Origin: an uncultured Coriobacteriaceae bacterium
Lineage (GTDB): Bacteria; Actinomycetota; Coriobacteriia; Coriobacteriales; Coriobacteriaceae
Assembly: GCA_944319885.1 (NCBI GenBank)
Contig: CALUFC010000006.1
Span: 1-64,000, forward strand
Direction of reading: 5' to 3'
DNA: 64,000 bases
In this document: in pieces, positions 30,870 to 38,158 of the stretch
How the letters are laid out: the number at the start of each line of letters is the position of its first letter
How positions within the stretch are numbered: the first letter of the stretch is position 1
The notes under the pieces: model-generated
What the model was told of the DNA's origin: nothing
What the model saw: the letters and a program-made list of their open reading frames with translations, nothing else
Database searches by the model: none
Position numbers and translations under genes: made by a program

Positions 30870-31787
30870 TTACACCTCGATTCCAGCAAGGATGGCCTGT
30901 GCAGCAGCATCGATGGAGCACGCATCCATATCGATCCACGTGATGCGCTCATCACGGCGAAACCACGAAAGCTGGCGTTTTGCATAGCGGCGCGAGCGCA
31001 TCTTAATGAGGTCAACCGCCGCTTCGAAGGATATCAAGCCATTGAGATAGTCGATGAGCTCCTTATAACCGATTGCCTGCTGCGCCGTGAGCGCCTCTGC
31101 GAGCCCCCGGCCAACAAGGCAACGGACCTCATCAAGCAGGCCGCGCTCCATCATGAGATCAACGCGCTCGTCGATGCGCTGGTAGAGCACCGCGCGATCC
31201 ATGGTTAGACCGAAATAACGCGTGGTATACCAAGGTTTGGGAGCAGAAAAACCCCGTTTCTGCTGAGCGTATGACACGCCTTCGTCATGCATCTCGAGTG
31301 CGCGGATCGTGCGCTTGACATTGTGCGGATGAATCTCAGCGGCGCTCGCGGGATCACGTTGAGCCAACAGGTCATGTAGGCCCTGTGCCCCGAGTTTTCG
31401 AGCCAGCTTATCATAGTGTCGGCGAGATGAGGAATCGACCTCGCCTGACGGGAAGGACATATCATCAAGCGCGGCACGGAGATACAAACCGGTTCCGCCG
31501 CAGACAACAGGAAGCTTCCCGTCATGGATCAAGCTGTCGATGCATAGCCTGGCATCATGCTGAAAGAGCGCGGCAGAATACGGGGTACCGGGATCGACAA
31601 CATCGACCATGAGCAAAGGTACGGGACGCTCTTCCTGCGGGGTCTTTGCGGTACCGATGTCCATACCCCGATAGACCTGCATCGAATCGGCGGAAACAAC
31701 ACTTGTATCAAGCTGAAGCGCTACGCAATCGGCAACGGCACTTTTACCAACTGCCGTGGGACCAACGATGGCAACAGCATCGATCAT
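30870..31787 (-). CDS. miaA: tRNA dimethylallyltransferase
   Basis: A 305-residue enzyme adding a dimethylallyl group to A37 of tRNAs that read UNN codons, giving i6A. The P-loop GPTAVGKS (9-16), DSMQVYRGMDIGTAK and VCGGTGLYLRA are family motifs. The start is ATG 31787, overlapping the miaB stop as ATGA. A longer frame from 31823 lacks a ribosome-binding site. MiaB, encoded directly upstream, methylthiolates the same base, so the operon builds ms2i6A in two steps. Confidence 0.94.
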   Translation of the reverse strand: MIDAVAIVGPTAVGKSAVADCVALQLDTSVVSADSMQVYRGMDIGTAKTPQEERPVPLLMVDVVDPGTPYSAALFQHDARLCIDSLIHDGKLPVVCGGTGLYLRAALDDMSFPSGEVDSSSRRHYDKLARKLGAQGLHDLLAQRDPASAAEIHPHNVKRTIRALEMHDEGVSYAQQKRGFSAPKPWYTTRYFGLTMDRAVLYQRIDERVDLMMERGLLDEVRCLVGRGLAEALTAQQAIGYKELIDYLNGLISFEAAVDLIKMRSRRYAKRQLSWFRRDERITWIDMDACSIDAAAQAILAGIEV

Positions 31788-33142
31788 CGTGGGTCGCTCG
31801 CCAACTGACCGGAAAGATACCATGTACGAGCCGTATCGATATCGACGTCTACGATACGACCAAGATATGCATCAACGGAAACGCCATCGGGCAAAGGCGC
31901 GTGAACGGTCTGGTTCTTAGGACTCTTGCCTTGCAGCATATGAGGGTTCTTTTTCGACGTTCCCTCAACCAGCACAGGAACACGCCGCCCACGCTCGATT
32001 TGATTGAACGCATAGGCGGTATCTTCGATCACGGAAACGAGCCGATCGAAGCGATCGAGAATGACATCACGCGGGGTGTCATCGGGAATGCGTGCGGCAG
32101 GCGTACCTTCGCGACGCGAGTAGATGAAGGTGAATGCCTGGGCATAGCCCACCTCGCGCGCAAGCGAGAGCGTTTCCAAAAAGTCTTCCTCGGTCTCACC
32201 GGGAAATCCAACGATGATGTCGGTAGTCAGAGCGATTTCGGGTATACGCTCGCGCACGCTACGAACGAGCGCAAGGTAGTCCTCGCGCGTGTAGCGCCGG
32301 TTCATCTCACGAAGAATTCTCGTCGACCCCGATTGAACGGCGAGGTGCAGATGAGGCATGACGGCAGGTACGTCTGCCATGGCAGCAATGGTTTCGGGCA
32401 GCAAATCCTTGGGATGAGACGATGTGAAACGGATTCGTTCGACACCGGTGTCGCCAACGGCTCGTAAGAGCTCAGCGAACCGCGGAGCTCCGTAGCGATC
32501 GCGTCCATAGGAGTTGACGTTCTGGCCAAGGAGCGTGACTTCGCGCACGCCGGAACGAGCCAGACCAGTCACCTCATCGACGATCTCCTCGAACACGCGG
32601 CTCTTCTCCCTGCCGCGCACATAGGGAACGATGCAGTAGCTGCAAAAGTTATTGCATCCCGTCATGATGGGAACCCAAGCATGATAGGACGTGGCACGAT
32701 GCCAAGGCATGGTTGTCGCAGAACCCGTTGCATCCTCGGCGGTCAAAACATGCCGCTCATCATCTTCGAACGCAGCCTCGATCAGCTCGGATACATGCGC
32801 TATCGCATGCGTACCGAAGATCACATCGACGTTATCTACATTTACGAGCAGGCCATCGCCGTCGCGCTGCGCGATGCACCCGCCAACAGCGATGACGCGC
32901 TTGCCCGATGGAGGTTGCGGGAGGCTTTTACAGGAGTTGCACTGGCCATAGAGCCGCTGGTCCGCCGCTTCGCGAACACAGCAGGTCATGAATATGACGA
33001 TATCCGCATCCGCCGGATCTGAAACCGAGAGACATCCGCATGCATCAAGTTCGCCGCTCACTCGTTCGGAGTCATGAAGGTTCATCTGACAACCGAACGT
33101 ACGGATGAAATAGGTTTTTCCCTGCAGGGCGCGCGTGGACAT
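31784..33142 (-). CDS. miaB: tRNA-2-methylthio-N6-dimethylallyladenosine synthase
   Basis: A 452-residue radical-SAM methylthiotransferase. The N-terminal UPF0004 domain has Cys18 (RTFGCQMN), the Cys pair in MTCCVREAAD and GGCIAQ for the auxiliary cluster. The SAM cluster motif is CNNFCSYC followed by VPYVRGREKSR. A C-terminal TRAM-like domain ends the protein. ATG 33142 follows GGAGGGGAGAG. It is one of three methylthiotransferases in this window (also rimO and mtaB). spoVS lies 13 bases upstream. Confidence 0.95.
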   Translation of the reverse strand: MSTRALQGKTYFIRTFGCQMNLHDSERVSGELDACGCLSVSDPADADIVIFMTCCVREAADQRLYGQCNSCKSLPQPPSGKRVIAVGGCIAQRDGDGLLVNVDNVDVIFGTHAIAHVSELIEAAFEDDERHVLTAEDATGSATTMPWHRATSYHAWVPIMTGCNNFCSYCIVPYVRGREKSRVFEEIVDEVTGLARSGVREVTLLGQNVNSYGRDRYGAPRFAELLRAVGDTGVERIRFTSSHPKDLLPETIAAMADVPAVMPHLHLAVQSGSTRILREMNRRYTREDYLALVRSVRERIPEIALTTDIIVGFPGETEEDFLETLSLAREVGYAQAFTFIYSRREGTPAARIPDDTPRDVILDRFDRLVSVIEDTAYAFNQIERGRRVPVLVEGTSKKNPHMLQGKSPKNQTVHAPLPDGVSVDAYLGRIVDVDIDTARTWYLSGQLASDPR

Positions 33143-33155
33143 ATGCTCTCCCCTC

Positions 33156-33476
33156 CTATGCTGCAGGGTAGGCATCGTCGATGTGCTCGATACGATCCGA
33201 GCCGGACATCGAAAGCGGATGGACATAGACCGCGAGCCGGATCGCGGTTCGCGACTCGCCGTTGATGAGAATATCGGAGAACGTGGGGGCACAGGAGATG
33301 TCAAAGCCCGTGGGGATGAGGAAGCCGCGCGCGATGGCCATGGCCTTGATCGCCTGATTGACGGCACCCGCACCCACGCATTGCATGTTGACGGGCACGC
33401 CATCTTTCACCATACCGGCGATGGCTCCAGCAACCGATGCCGGAGACGACTTACTCGAGACCTTCAGATATTCCAT
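33156..33476 (-). CDS. spoVS: SpoVS-like Alba-fold protein
   Basis: A 106-residue protein. MEYLKVSSKSSPASVAGAI and the GAGAVNQAIKAMAIARGFL region match SpoVS, a small Alba-like nucleic-acid-binding protein. In Bacillus it affects sporulation stage V, but it is found in many non-sporulating bacteria, so that label says little here. The C-terminal 20 residues go beyond the 86-residue Bacillus protein. It stands between an orphan GHKL ATPase and miaB, in an order close to rny-ymdB-spoVS in Bacillus. Confidence 0.92.
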   Translation of the reverse strand: MEYLKVSSKSSPASVAGAIAGMVKDGVPVNMQCVGAGAVNQAIKAMAIARGFLIPTGFDISCAPTFSDILINGESRTAIRLAVYVHPLSMSGSDRIEHIDDAYPAA

Positions 33477-33551: not shown

Positions 33552-34634
33552 TCATTCTTCCTTGGCTACCTCGAAGGTAATAGTGATCCGATCATGGCCC
33601 ACACGGACCTTTGGATCAGCGGTTGTAGATAAGTAATACTTCGAGGCGAGCTCGGAAAAGTCGCGCTCAACAGCTCGTGAGAATGCAGCGATATCTTCAC
33701 GCGAGATCTTGAGTCCGCGACGATCACGGGCAAGATCAACCGGTTTTTGCGAAGACGGCTTGGTGCGCTCGCGCAACAGGCGCGCCGACACGCTGCGCAG
33801 CGGCTTGATCGTACCGCTGAGAATGCGATGGGCGGTACGCTCGGAGATCTCTATACCGATCGAGCGGGCGATATCGATAAAATCCTGAGCGTCGGTGGCA
33901 AGTCCAAGGCGATCAACGACCGGTAACACAGAAGGGTCATCCACGAACAGCATCTGCGTGGCGTCTACCGCGGTATTCGCATGGGAATAGAGCGTCGCGG
34001 CGATTTCGGTCGGTGTGCCCAGATAGACATCGCACCCATGAAGCTCATCGAGTGCGACGGCGCAAGCAGCGCGAATGATGTTATGGGGCCCGCGAACAAG
34101 GTGAAAGGCGCCCGCATCATCTTTTTCAACCTCGGGCCAGGTGGATTGATCGGCACGCTCGGGGAGCACCGAGACATCGGCGCGAACGACAAATGCCGAG
34201 CCAAGTCCAGTATCCGAGGAGACCACGCGCGCTTCACGCACATTCTGGCGAATCGAAAAGAGGGCCATACCACGACCGTGCACGCCCCATCGATCCATCT
34301 TCATGCTCTCAAGCTTCGACGTGACGCGGGCCTCGAAGATCGCATCATGCATATCGACGGGAACTCCGCAGCCATCATCAAAAAAAAGGAGCGTACGCTC
34401 AGAATCGCTGCGGCTCGTTGCGAGGTACAGGCGTTTTGCACCGGCATCGCGCGCGTTGCGCAGCATCTCGATCACAATATCCTCTACATGCTGGATATCA
34501 TGCTTGGCCTGACGACGCTCCGCCTCCGAGACACGCAAACGAACATATCCTTCACCAAGGTTCTCCTCAACTCTGAGGTTACCCTCGCCGGTCATGGAAG
34601 CGATGAAGGATATGAGTTCGTTTGCGTCGGACAT
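33552..34634 (-). CDS. Stand-alone MutL-type GHKL ATPase, unknown function
   Basis: A 360-residue protein with a GHKL ATP-binding fold in its first half. The N box is EMLRNARDAGA (Glu56, Asn60, Asp63), motif II is FDDGCGVP (86-92), and GVHGRGMALFSI (117-128) resembles the GFRGEALxSI of MutL. VTSKL before it matches the MutL ATSKI segment. There is no MutL C-terminal domain, no histidine-kinase H box and no HSP90 middle domain. The second half (about 150-360) is unrecognised and contains a helical basic stretch (265-310). It occupies the place of ymdB between rny and spoVS. A DNA- or RNA-remodelling switch is a guess. Confidence 0.85.
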   Translation of the reverse strand: MSDANELISFIASMTGEGNLRVEENLGEGYVRLRVSEAERRQAKHDIQHVEDIVIEMLRNARDAGAKRLYLATSRSDSERTLLFFDDGCGVPVDMHDAIFEARVTSKLESMKMDRWGVHGRGMALFSIRQNVREARVVSSDTGLGSAFVVRADVSVLPERADQSTWPEVEKDDAGAFHLVRGPHNIIRAACAVALDELHGCDVYLGTPTEIAATLYSHANTAVDATQMLFVDDPSVLPVVDRLGLATDAQDFIDIARSIGIEISERTAHRILSGTIKPLRSVSARLLRERTKPSSQKPVDLARDRRGLKISREDIAAFSRAVERDFSELASKYYLSTTADPKVRVGHDRITITFEVAKEE

Positions 34635-34639
34635 AGAAG

Positions 34640-36190
34640 CTACTTCGCGATATCGACCGCGCGACTCTCGCGGATAACAACGACGCGAACCTGACCGGGA
34701 TACTCCATCTCTTCCTCGATCTGGTGCGCGATGTCATGCGCGAGGACGGTGGATTGGGCGTCGGAGATCTTATCGGGCTGCACCATAACGTGGATCTCGC
34801 GACCCGCCTGCATGGCATAGGTCCGCTCGACACCGTCGTGAGCGTTTGCGATCTCCTCAAGTTTCTCAAGGCGCTTGATGTAGTTCTCGGCAGATTCACG
34901 CCGCGCGCCCGGACGAGACGCGGAGATGGCATCGGCAGCCATCACGAGCACGGCAAGCACGGAGTCGGGGTCGACATCGCCATGATGGGCTTCGATTGCA
35001 TGGACGATGAAGGGCTTTTCACCATATCGACGGGCAAGGTCGGCGCCAATCACCGCATGCGGGCCCTCAACATCATGGTCGATGGCCTTGCCGAGGTCGT
35101 GAAGCAGGCCGGCACGACGGGCGATCTTGGCATCGAGTCCCAGCTCGGAGGCCATGATGCCGCAAAGCTCGGCAACCTCGCGGGAATGATTGAGGACGTT
35201 CTGTCCGAACGAGGTACGGTACCGGAGCGCACCAAGCGTCTTGATGATCTCGGGATGGAGGTCATGAATGCCCGTATCAAACGCCGCCTGCTCGCCGGCT
35301 TCGCGCACGCGCTGCTGCACGAGATCGGAAGCCTTTTGATACATCTCCTCGATGCGCGCGGGATGAATGCGGCCGTCGGCGATGAGATTCTCGAGCGCGA
35401 CGCGCGCCGTCTCGCGACGAACGGGATCGAAGCTCGAGAGCACCACCGTTTCAGGCGTATCGTCGATAACGAGGTTCACGCCCGACACCTGCTCGAACGT
35501 GCGGATGTTGCGCCCCTCGCGGCCGATGATGCGGCCCTTCAAATCATCCGACGGGATATGCACCGAGGTAACAGTGACCTCAGCGGTATGATCTGCCGCG
35601 CAACGCTGGATGGCTAGCGAGATGATCTCCTGGGCAGTCTTATGGCACTCAGCCTTAACCTGTTGCTCGGACTCGCGAATAATAGCCGCTGCCTCGTGCG
35701 TCACCTCGCCACGAACCTTGTCGAGAAGCTCTTGATGTGCGTCCTCACGCGTGAGGTCGGAGATGCGCTCGAGTTCGGCGGTCTGCTTGCTTACGAGTTC
35801 CTCGAGTTCACGGCTGCGCTTCTCAACCTGACCTGCTTGGCTCGAAAGCTGATGCTCGCGCTTGTCGAGCGCATCGTTACGACGGTCAAGCGACTCCTCG
35901 CGCTGCATCATCCTGTTCTCAAGCGTGCGAAGCTCGCGCTTGCGCTGCTTCTCTTCCGCCTCGGCGGCCTGCTTGCTTTGGATGATCTCCTCTTTCGCTT
36001 CGAGAAGCGCTTCTTTCTTCAAGGTCTCTGCCTGTCGCTGCGCGTCGCCGAGCAGTTGATCGGCCTGTGCGCGCGCCGACTCAAGACGCGAGTCGGCTTC
36101 ACGAAGGCTTCCCTGCTTAGCGGTGCGCATAGCGATCACGGCAGCGATGGCACCGACAACCAGGCCAACGATACCGATTACGATCTCCAT
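34640..36190 (-). CDS. rny: Ribonuclease Y
   Basis: A 516-residue membrane-anchored endoribonuclease that starts mRNA decay. A single N-terminal helix spans about 3-21. A long coiled coil (about 25-190) has regular Glu/Lys/Gln heptads. A KH domain ([15 protein letters not shown]) and an HD domain ([22 protein letters not shown]) follow. ATG 36190 has AAGGAG five bases upstream; a GTG at 36196 overlaps that site. A promoter and a terminator-like hairpin lie in the leader. The window also encodes RNase J and PNPase, its usual partners. Confidence 0.96.
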
Positions 36191-36215
36191 GTCCACTCCT
36201 TATCAATGCTCAAGA

Positions 36216-36245
36216 CAAAAAAGACTGCTCGACATAGTCGAGCAG
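36216..36245 (-). terminator. Intrinsic terminator or attenuator in the rny leader
   Basis: On the minus strand CTGCTCGAC (36245-36237) and GTCGAGCAG (36233-36225) form a perfect 9-bp stem with a three-base loop, followed by TC and TTTTTT. It can end recA-recX transcription. Because a promoter lies upstream of it, it can also act inside the rny leader. Confidence 0.85.
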
Positions 36246-36340
36246 GACATTTGCGTGGTATGGTCCCCGCAATGAATATCTCATGTGTTATATCGATCTC
36301 ATCTACGATGAGCGCATATCACAAAACAAATGACATATTC

Positions 36341-36369
36341 ATCCTACGTGGAAGATTCACGGGTGTCAA
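36341..36369 (-). promoter_or_regulatory. Promoter for rny
   Basis: On the minus strand TTGACA (36369-36364, a perfect -35) and TAGGAT (36346-36341) are exactly 17 bases apart. Transcription would start near 36334. That gives a leader of about 145 bases containing a 6-bp hairpin (36298-36312) and the terminator-like stem at 36216-36245 before the rny ribosome-binding site. Confidence 0.7.
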
Positions 36370-36403: not shown

Positions 36404-37072
36404 CTATGAATCGGCATCGATTCGATCACGCGCAGCTTGAGAGGCAATTGCGTACTCAAATCCCTTTCCCATAAGAAATCGCATGAGCTTAGGATACGGA
36501 TCGCGCTCGGGAATCCGTTTTCGCTCGAGCAGCGCCCGCGCCCGTTGAAGATCGTCTTCATGGGAAAAGTATGATTCAGGATAACCGGCGATCGTCGTAG
36601 GATCGATGCCTTTTCGCCGCAATTCAAGCTCGATCTTGCGCCTCCCCCAACCGCGCTGCAGGCGCTCTCGGATGAAGTACTCGCAAAAACGTTCGTTATT
36701 CAAGAAGCGATGCTGTCGTGCTTGCGCTATGGCCGATTCGATCGAGGCGCGACGGAATCCTGACCGAGCAAGCTTTTGCTCGACTTCACGTTCCGCATGA
36801 TCGCGACGAGCCAGCATCTCAAGCGTTGCGGCATAGCATATCTGTTCGTCGAGTCCGAGGAGCCACTCCGAAAGCTCATGGAGCTCACATGGCACATCTG
36901 GAAGCTCCTTTCGAGCTGCACGCGCAACTCTGGGCGGAACCGAGTAGGCATGATCGACACCGGATGGCTCTATGAACCGAACGGTTGCAAGCGGCTTCTT
37001 TGATCGATACTGAGCAGCGAGTGATTCTGCGCGCTGGGGTAGCTCGATGGCGATGTCGGCAATACGCGGCAT
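36404..37072 (-). CDS. recX: Regulatory protein RecX
   Basis: A 222-residue helical protein that binds and restrains RecA filaments. The repeated three-helix units are seen in AEREVEQKLARSGF, IESAIAQARQHRFLNNERFCEYFI and RGWGRRKIELELRRKGI. The N-terminal 70 residues are an extension with little similarity to the short RecX form. ATG 37072 starts 3 bases after the recA stop, so expression follows the SOS-controlled recA promoter. Confidence 0.9.
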   Translation of the reverse strand: MPRIADIAIELPQRAESLAAQYRSKKPLATVRFIEPSGVDHAYSVPPRVARAARKELPDVPCELHELSEWLLGLDEQICYAATLEMLARRDHAEREVEQKLARSGFRRASIESAIAQARQHRFLNNERFCEYFIRERLQRGWGRRKIELELRRKGIDPTTIAGYPESYFSHEDDLQRARALLERKRIPERDPYPKLMRFLMGKGFEYAIASQAARDRIDADS

Positions 37073-37075
37073 GGC

Positions 37076-38158
<1,083 letters not shown>

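Follow-up and report, generated by a model that had tools for sequence, protein, structure and literature searches.

A GHKL ATPase gene linked to rny in Coriobacteriia and other Actinomycetota, and its possible role as an accessory of RNase Y

We found that a gene for a GHKL ATPase of 360 amino acids is genetically associated with rny. This gene encodes RNase Y, the enzyme with which mRNA decay begins in many Gram-positive bacteria and whose known specificity factors, RicA, RicF, and RicT, come from work on Bacillus. Our best explanation, to which we give a probability of about 0.45, is that the ATPase is an ATP-gated dimer of the GHL type that assists or regulates RNase Y. We infer an interaction of the ATPase with RNase Y, an ATP cycle, and an effect on RNA. 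The kind of domain is known; the ATPase family and its linkage to rny appear to be undescribed. A literature search for GHKL together with RNase Y gave no paper naming both.

The gene lies in the window (the whole stretch of DNA analyzed, 64,000 nucleotides) in the order recA-recX-rny-ATPase-spoVS-miaB, as the first-pass annotation had read it. The genes of the block are as follows.

31784..33142, minus strand: miaB (TIGR01574, E 1.5e-133); the probable start is MSTRALQ, within a longer open reading frame.
33156..33476, minus strand: spoVS, 106 amino acids (PF04232, E 6e-34).
33552..34634, minus strand: the GHKL ATPase gene, 360 amino acids (open reading frame, Pfam HATPase_c and HATPase_c_3 above cut-off, orthologues, and annotation in Collinsella).
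34640..36196, minus strand: rny, RNase Y, 518 amino acids (TIGR03319, E 6e-216), 5 nt upstream of the ATPase gene.
36404..37072, minus strand: recX (NCBIfam RecX models).
37076..38158, minus strand: recA (TIGR02012).

The ATPase gene was next to rny wherever this could be assessed. We collected 145 ATPase loci, and in all of those with upstream DNA (143/143) rny was the closest same-strand gene detected upstream. This number comprises 139 loci found by a strict rule, three with longer gaps, and one with an over-long predicted start; two more loci end at a contig edge. The locus counts include some species twice, and 57 representatives remain under 72% identity. Spacing between rny and the ATPase gene was usually 0-25 nt (median, a few nt), and the two sometimes overlapped. 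On the other side, spoVS was the next downstream gene in 125 of the 145 loci. The genes beyond the ATPase (spoVS, then miaB) were lost, moved, or split off by insertions in several lineages; rny never was. Families f39 and f48 have kept rny and the ATPase, and SpoVS is missing both at the locus and genome-wide. In two genomes (G205 and G206) the ATPase gene is still beside rny, and spoVS is elsewhere or about 2 kb away. Thus rny and the ATPase gene are the tightest pair of the block.

Two other genes were seen in this region. A gene for a PHP-domain protein like RNase RNM / nucleoside bisphosphate phosphatase lies between spoVS (or the ATPase gene) and miaB in several orders, and is a further RNA-related gene in the block:

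L104:9486-10331, PHP-domain gene.
L109:5737-6579, PHP-domain gene.
L115:6715-7563, PHP-domain gene.
L112:7131-7967, PHP-domain gene.

In family f48, which lacks SpoVS, an open reading frame of about 310 amino acids directly follows the ATPase gene (L116:7054-7986 and L117:9077-10009); the L116 copy had no match in Pfam or NCBIfam.

The first-pass annotation had given the Bacillus order as recA-rny-ymdB-spoVS and had placed the ATPase in the position of ymdB. The order holds, except that one extra gene, for a serine hydrolase, lies between recA and rny: the Bacillus order is recA-(serine hydrolase)-rny-ymdB-spoVS-tdh-kbl-miaB, and B. velezensis shows rny-ymdB-spoVS. The idea of a replacement did not hold up, as some lineages have neither gene: f38, f50, and others have rny-spoVS without the ATPase, and f29, f35, and f53 have rny-miaB with neither the ATPase nor spoVS. 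YmdB, a phosphodiesterase (TIGR00282), resembles the ATPase in that its gene separates rny from spoVS in Bacillus, but has no sequence relation to it, and we did not find it in the Actinomycetota loci examined.

The ATPase is a core gene of Coriobacteriia. It was present in 196/199 Coriobacteriia genomes, nearly always in single copy; the genome of the window has one copy. Outside Coriobacteriia, we found a strong match in 92 of 270 Actinomycetota genomes, which belonged to an evenly drawn sample of 296. The positive families represent several other deep lineages; one of these families, f39, has a shorter form of about 300 amino acids. The whole-genome survey covered Actinomycetota. In records of Bacillota, Fusobacteriota, and Bacteroidota, the family profile had no match near rny. 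A tblastn search of a plasmid collection (72,556 records, some of them chromosome-sized) gave a relative only in a Collinsella record, and among viral contigs 14 pattern matches were seen, none of which was confirmed. The window comes from a Collinsella-like member of Coriobacteriia, and in the nearest named record, CALUIM010000004, the protein is 91% identical. Against this relative, dN was 0.056 and dS 1.7; dS is near saturation, and the ratio is clearly low. The gene is real, and purifying selection on it is strong. In a record of Collinsella aerofaciens, the orthologue is named only "ATP-binding protein".

Presence of the ATPase tracks presence of RNase Y. Among the 270 genomes outside Coriobacteriia, 91 had both, 1 had the ATPase alone, 90 had RNase Y alone, and 88 had neither. 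That is, RNase Y was found in 91/92 ATPase-positive genomes, as expected of an accessory that occurs only with RNase Y, and in 90/178 ATPase-negative genomes. The sole exception (G431) is an assembly that is 79% complete. In the same 270 genomes, the ATPase occurred with SpoVS in 57 and without it in 35, and 11 had SpoVS without the ATPase. Fisher tests were strong for both pairs, with shared ancestry ignored. Four genomes (G276, G351, G413, and G452) have two spoVS genes each, one of them off the rny locus where visible.

In a chosen set of 40 genomes, we also looked for RicT, RicA/RicF, and MutL. PSP1 (RicT) was found in 23/23 ATPase-positive and 7/17 ATPase-negative genomes, and Com_YlbF (RicA/RicF) in 0/23 and 1/17, respectively. 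RicT without RicA/RicF was found in ATPase-negative lineages too, which counts against a role of the ATPase with RNase Y. MutL was found in 3 of the 40 genomes, all of family f39, and is absent from the genome of the window. Three members of f39 (G219, G247, and G259) have two MutL homologues each, and there were none in the other Actinomycetota tested.

Further observations count against such a role. In many lineages, as in the 90 genomes that have rny alone, RNase Y does its work with this ATPase missing. In addition, one genome in the same order, G163 (locus L162; one contig, 1.45 Mb, listed as 99% complete), has lost the ATPase and kept rny, spoVS, and RicT. Its gap between rny and spoVS is approximately 210 nt with no detectable remnant of the ATPase gene; recX was not detected there either. 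Because G163 lost the gene, the ATPase is dispensable in a reduced genome.

The N-terminal half of the protein is a GHKL ATPase domain. The regions of the protein are as follows.

34500..34577, minus strand: N-terminal segment, residues 20-45, with the family signature EAERRQA (alignment A1).
34155..34499, minus strand: GHKL (Bergerat) ATPase domain, residues 46-160 (Pfam, profile, alignment, and model).
33552..34142, minus strand: C-terminal half, residues 165-360 (secondary structure of the model and invariant columns).

The MutL-like motifs that the first-pass annotation had picked out by eye (EMLRNARDAGA, DDGCGVP, VTSKL, and GVHGRGMALFSI) are all present in the product of the open reading frame. 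Pfam gave HATPase_c (E 4e-7) and HATPase_c_3 (E 2e-5) at residues 46-153, both above curated cut-offs, and no further match in the 360 residues. The N box is E56..N60, the G1 box D86-G88-G90, the TSK lid T105-K107, and the G2 box H119-G-R-G122. The catalytic Glu (E56) and the Mg-binding Asn (N60) are conserved in 50/50 aligned members, and among 51 diverse members D86 is conserved in 50, T105 in 51, and G122 in 51. Residues N60, D86, G88, G90, G120, and G122 are conserved as in the GHKL (Bergerat) fold, with which the model and the fold match agree. The lid (T105-S/T106-K/R107) is also conserved, and the Glu sits four residues before the Asn, as in hydrolyzing GHL-type ATPases. In a profile alignment E56 aligns with the Glu of the MutL motif KELVEN, which is the catalytic base in MutL, so ATP hydrolysis is expected. 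From its sequence, then, the ATPase is expected to be a hydrolysis-competent protein of the GHL type (gyrase/Hsp90/MutL-like).

The most conserved part of the protein begins just ahead of this domain. Column entropy was lowest at residues 21-60, which include the EAERRQA segment, and E37, R40, and R41 are invariant or nearly so (alignment A1). In GyrB, Hsp90, and MutL, N-terminal segments swap in the ATP-bound dimer. By analogy, we infer that the N-terminal segment is a dimerization strap.

An AlphaFold2 model of the ATPase (pLDDT 87, mostly 75-98 over residues 46-160; pTM 0.74) gave a MutL N-terminal domain as its best match in a fold comparison with VIA-align (Z 13.7, rmsd 4.3, 151 residues aligned), followed at Z 11-13 by further entries for MutL, topoisomerase VI, and gyrase. 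Among viral structures, all Foldseek matches were to histidine kinases or topoisomerases and were confined to the GHKL part. The C-terminal half, which the first-pass annotation had not recognized, had no Pfam match over 51 members. In the model it consists of a beta-beta-alpha-beta-alpha unit (residues 165-222), helices at residues 225-290, and a long helix with strands at residues 312-358. Its invariant residues are N185, S264, and R270, the latter two within the helices at 225-290. As to an S5-type transducer domain, residues 165-222 have the beta-beta-alpha-beta-alpha arrangement in the model with no sequence match, and the fold alignment stops inside the MutL GHKL domain. Predicted separately without an alignment, the C-terminal half gave a pLDDT of 45; that model was left unused, and the fold comparison refers to the full-length model only. 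A helix-turn-helix at residues 245-272 was seen by eye only, and no such family was convincingly matched. Basic segments for nucleic-acid binding were considered and rejected, every segment having an acidic to neutral pI. Because all segments are acidic to neutral, protein contacts are favored over non-specific binding of nucleic acid.

We found no characterized family behind the ATPase, in agreement with the view that it is undescribed. Searches of Pfam, NCBIfam, PHROGs, and PADLOC matched no family model more specific than the generic ATPase domain. PHROGs gave a single weak match of unknown function at residues 314-350, and PADLOC a match to MzaB (E 0.003) at the GHKL part only. With a profile of 51 members, the best PDB matches were N-terminal domains of MutL (E 1.3e-9), at residues ~49-136 only. 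The N-terminal ATPase of MutL (LN40; PDB 9n2k, 1b63, and 6lzj) has its N box (E..N), G1 box, TSK lid, and G2 box in register with ours, but the similarity stops at the end of the GHKL domain and the C-terminal half of the ATPase is unmatched. The score to the MutL family model TIGR00585 was 25 bits, compared to a cut-off of 180. Unlike MutL, the ATPase has the extra EAERRQA segment, and it is linked to RNase Y rather than to mismatch repair. As the first-pass annotation had claimed, it lacks the endonuclease and dimerization domains of MutL, for which Pfam and NCBIfam gave no match in the ATPase of the window, and no match was seen in any of the 51 members. The prokaryotic GHKL-S5 ATPases of the MORC/paraMORC group are likewise GHKL ATPases outside mismatch repair, but they are sporadic and occur in restriction-modification-like systems with helicases and nucleases (PMC2292703). 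In contrast, our ATPase is core, vertically inherited, and linked to rny, with no helicase neighbor; in the lineages read, its neighbors are recA-rny-(spoVS)-miaB.

The proposed function is closest to that of the Y-complex. In B. subtilis, RicT is passed on by RicA and RicF to RNase Y and binds it, and RicT together with RNase Y has been proposed to be the processing enzyme; RicA and RicF share Fe-S clusters with RicT, and neither is an ATPase (PMC10470536). The ATPase is unrelated to RicA and RicF in sequence, and YlbF-domain proteins are absent from the ATPase-positive genomes of the chosen set, but RicT always accompanies it there. We suggest that, like other GHL proteins, the ATPase would close as a homodimer via its N-terminal segment when ATP binds, and that its C-terminal half would contact RNase Y (or RicT) and not naked nucleic acid, as would suit the acidic to neutral regions of the protein. 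The ATP cycle might load, release, or re-target RNase Y, perhaps with RicT, in a role comparable to that of RicA and RicF in Bacillus. Somewhat more doubtful is the broader notion of an undescribed family of ATP-driven RNase Y cofactors, in which a GHL clamp would load or re-target the main endonuclease of mRNA decay in Actinomycetota that lack RicA and RicF.

The main rival to an RNase Y accessory is a GHL ATPase that hitchhikes in the conserved block. It would have a housekeeping task that does not involve RNase Y, such as DNA topology or repair near recA or tRNA modification near miaB/miaA, and slow rearrangement and co-transcription would have held it there. We consider this unlikely, though it deserves serious weight. 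recA, rny, miaB, miaA, and hflX stay together across the phylum whether the ATPase is present or not, and the closest folds are GHL proteins that act on DNA. Because the recA-rny-miaB block is syntenic even without the ATPase, background synteny explains part of the adjacency. Against a hitchhiker stand the pairing with rny, which is tighter than any other in the block and outlasts changes on the spoVS/miaB side, and the co-occurrence with RNase Y (91/92). The first-pass annotation had named SpoVS or RNase Y as the partner. The comparative data favor RNase Y, rny being adjacent in all assessable loci and its linkage kept among relatives; they speak against SpoVS, which is absent, and its linkage lost, in several lineages. 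SpoVS is a protein of the Alba superfamily (PMC11621453), and an ATP-driven switch acting on it would fit spoVS being next downstream in most loci and co-occurring above chance, shared ancestry ignored. Such a switch is improbable: 35/92 ATPase-positive genomes outside Coriobacteriia lack SpoVS, 11 genomes have SpoVS without the ATPase, and rny and the ATPase gene are still adjacent in the two genomes in which spoVS is displaced. Because the rny linkage persists without SpoVS, this switch is not well supported. As a whole, the earlier reading of the ATPase is partly supported.

We think it very improbable that the ATPase is a GHKL-fold protein kinase, like anti-sigma-factor kinases or SpoIIAB, that phosphorylates a neighbor such as RNase Y or SpoVS. 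SpoIIAB-type kinases likewise use a Glu in the N box, so the Glu-Asn N box alone is compatible with such a kinase, and some histidine-kinase models match the domain weakly. However, the Pfam models assigned are HATPase_c and HATPase_c_3 rather than that of anti-sigma kinases, the TSK and HGRG..L.SI forms of the lid are MutL-like, and MutL and topoisomerase ATPases top the fold ranking. A phospho-acceptor histidine domain (HisKA/DHp) was not found at E 0.1 in 51 members, in which only HATPase_c was matched. There is very little to be said for the idea that the ATPase is a cut-down MutL standing in for the full protein in mismatch repair. MutL is the best match in sequence and fold, and the genome of the window lacks MutL, but so do nearly all Actinomycetota tested, whether or not they have the ATPase. 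Moreover, family f39 carries the ATPase plus two MutL proteins, and the C-terminal domain of MutL was not detected in the ATPase.

The leader of rny contains a conserved hairpin. In the window, the relevant features are as follows.

36225..36245, minus strand: terminator-like hairpin in the rny leader (covariance model match at 36216-36253, 27.8 bits; the window is among the training sequences).
36341..36369, minus strand: promoter-like site TTGACA-17-TAGGAT upstream of the hairpin (recognized only by its likeness to the consensus; such sites are as frequent in the region as chance would give).

Many families have the hairpin, GCCGAGC-loop-GCTCGGC with a U run after it, at about 25-100 nt upstream of rny (L109-L126, L128, L144, L145, L165, L166, L171, L174, L175, and others). 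A strict pattern for it was found in 6/24 whole genomes, once each and always in the rny leader; a reversed control pattern was found nowhere. All 7 pairs of the stem have changes on both sides, with 97.4% of cells paired, which exceeds every shuffle for most measures. On 84 loci (1.33 Mb), the covariance model matched almost solely rny leaders, including those of lineages without the ATPase; most of the matches were training sequences, and L083, L119, L123, L127, L146, L148, L173, and L174 were not. Rfam had no match in the rny leader of the window. Related families of the same order (L087, L088, and L092-L094) have a different conserved element upstream of rny, GGCGGGTTCC...GGTCTCCTGAAC, in place of the GCCGAGC hairpin. 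Autoregulation or attenuation of the rny-ATPase operon is one possible function of the hairpin; termination of the preceding gene is another. In B. subtilis, RNase Y regulates its own mRNA by cutting it within a 164-nt leader and at the beginning of the reading frame (PMC10303841), and the hairpin is a candidate cis-element for such autoregulation.

These findings concern a nearly universal gene of Coriobacteriia that has no assigned function and is firmly tied to rny, against a genomic background of RicT without RicA and RicF. To our knowledge, no one has looked for energy-dependent control of mRNA decay in gut Actinomycetota. If the proposed role is correct, the ATPase would be, as far as we know, the first GHKL ATPase acting in bacterial RNA decay, and there would be an energy-dependent control step in the mRNA decay of gut Actinomycetota such as Collinsella.
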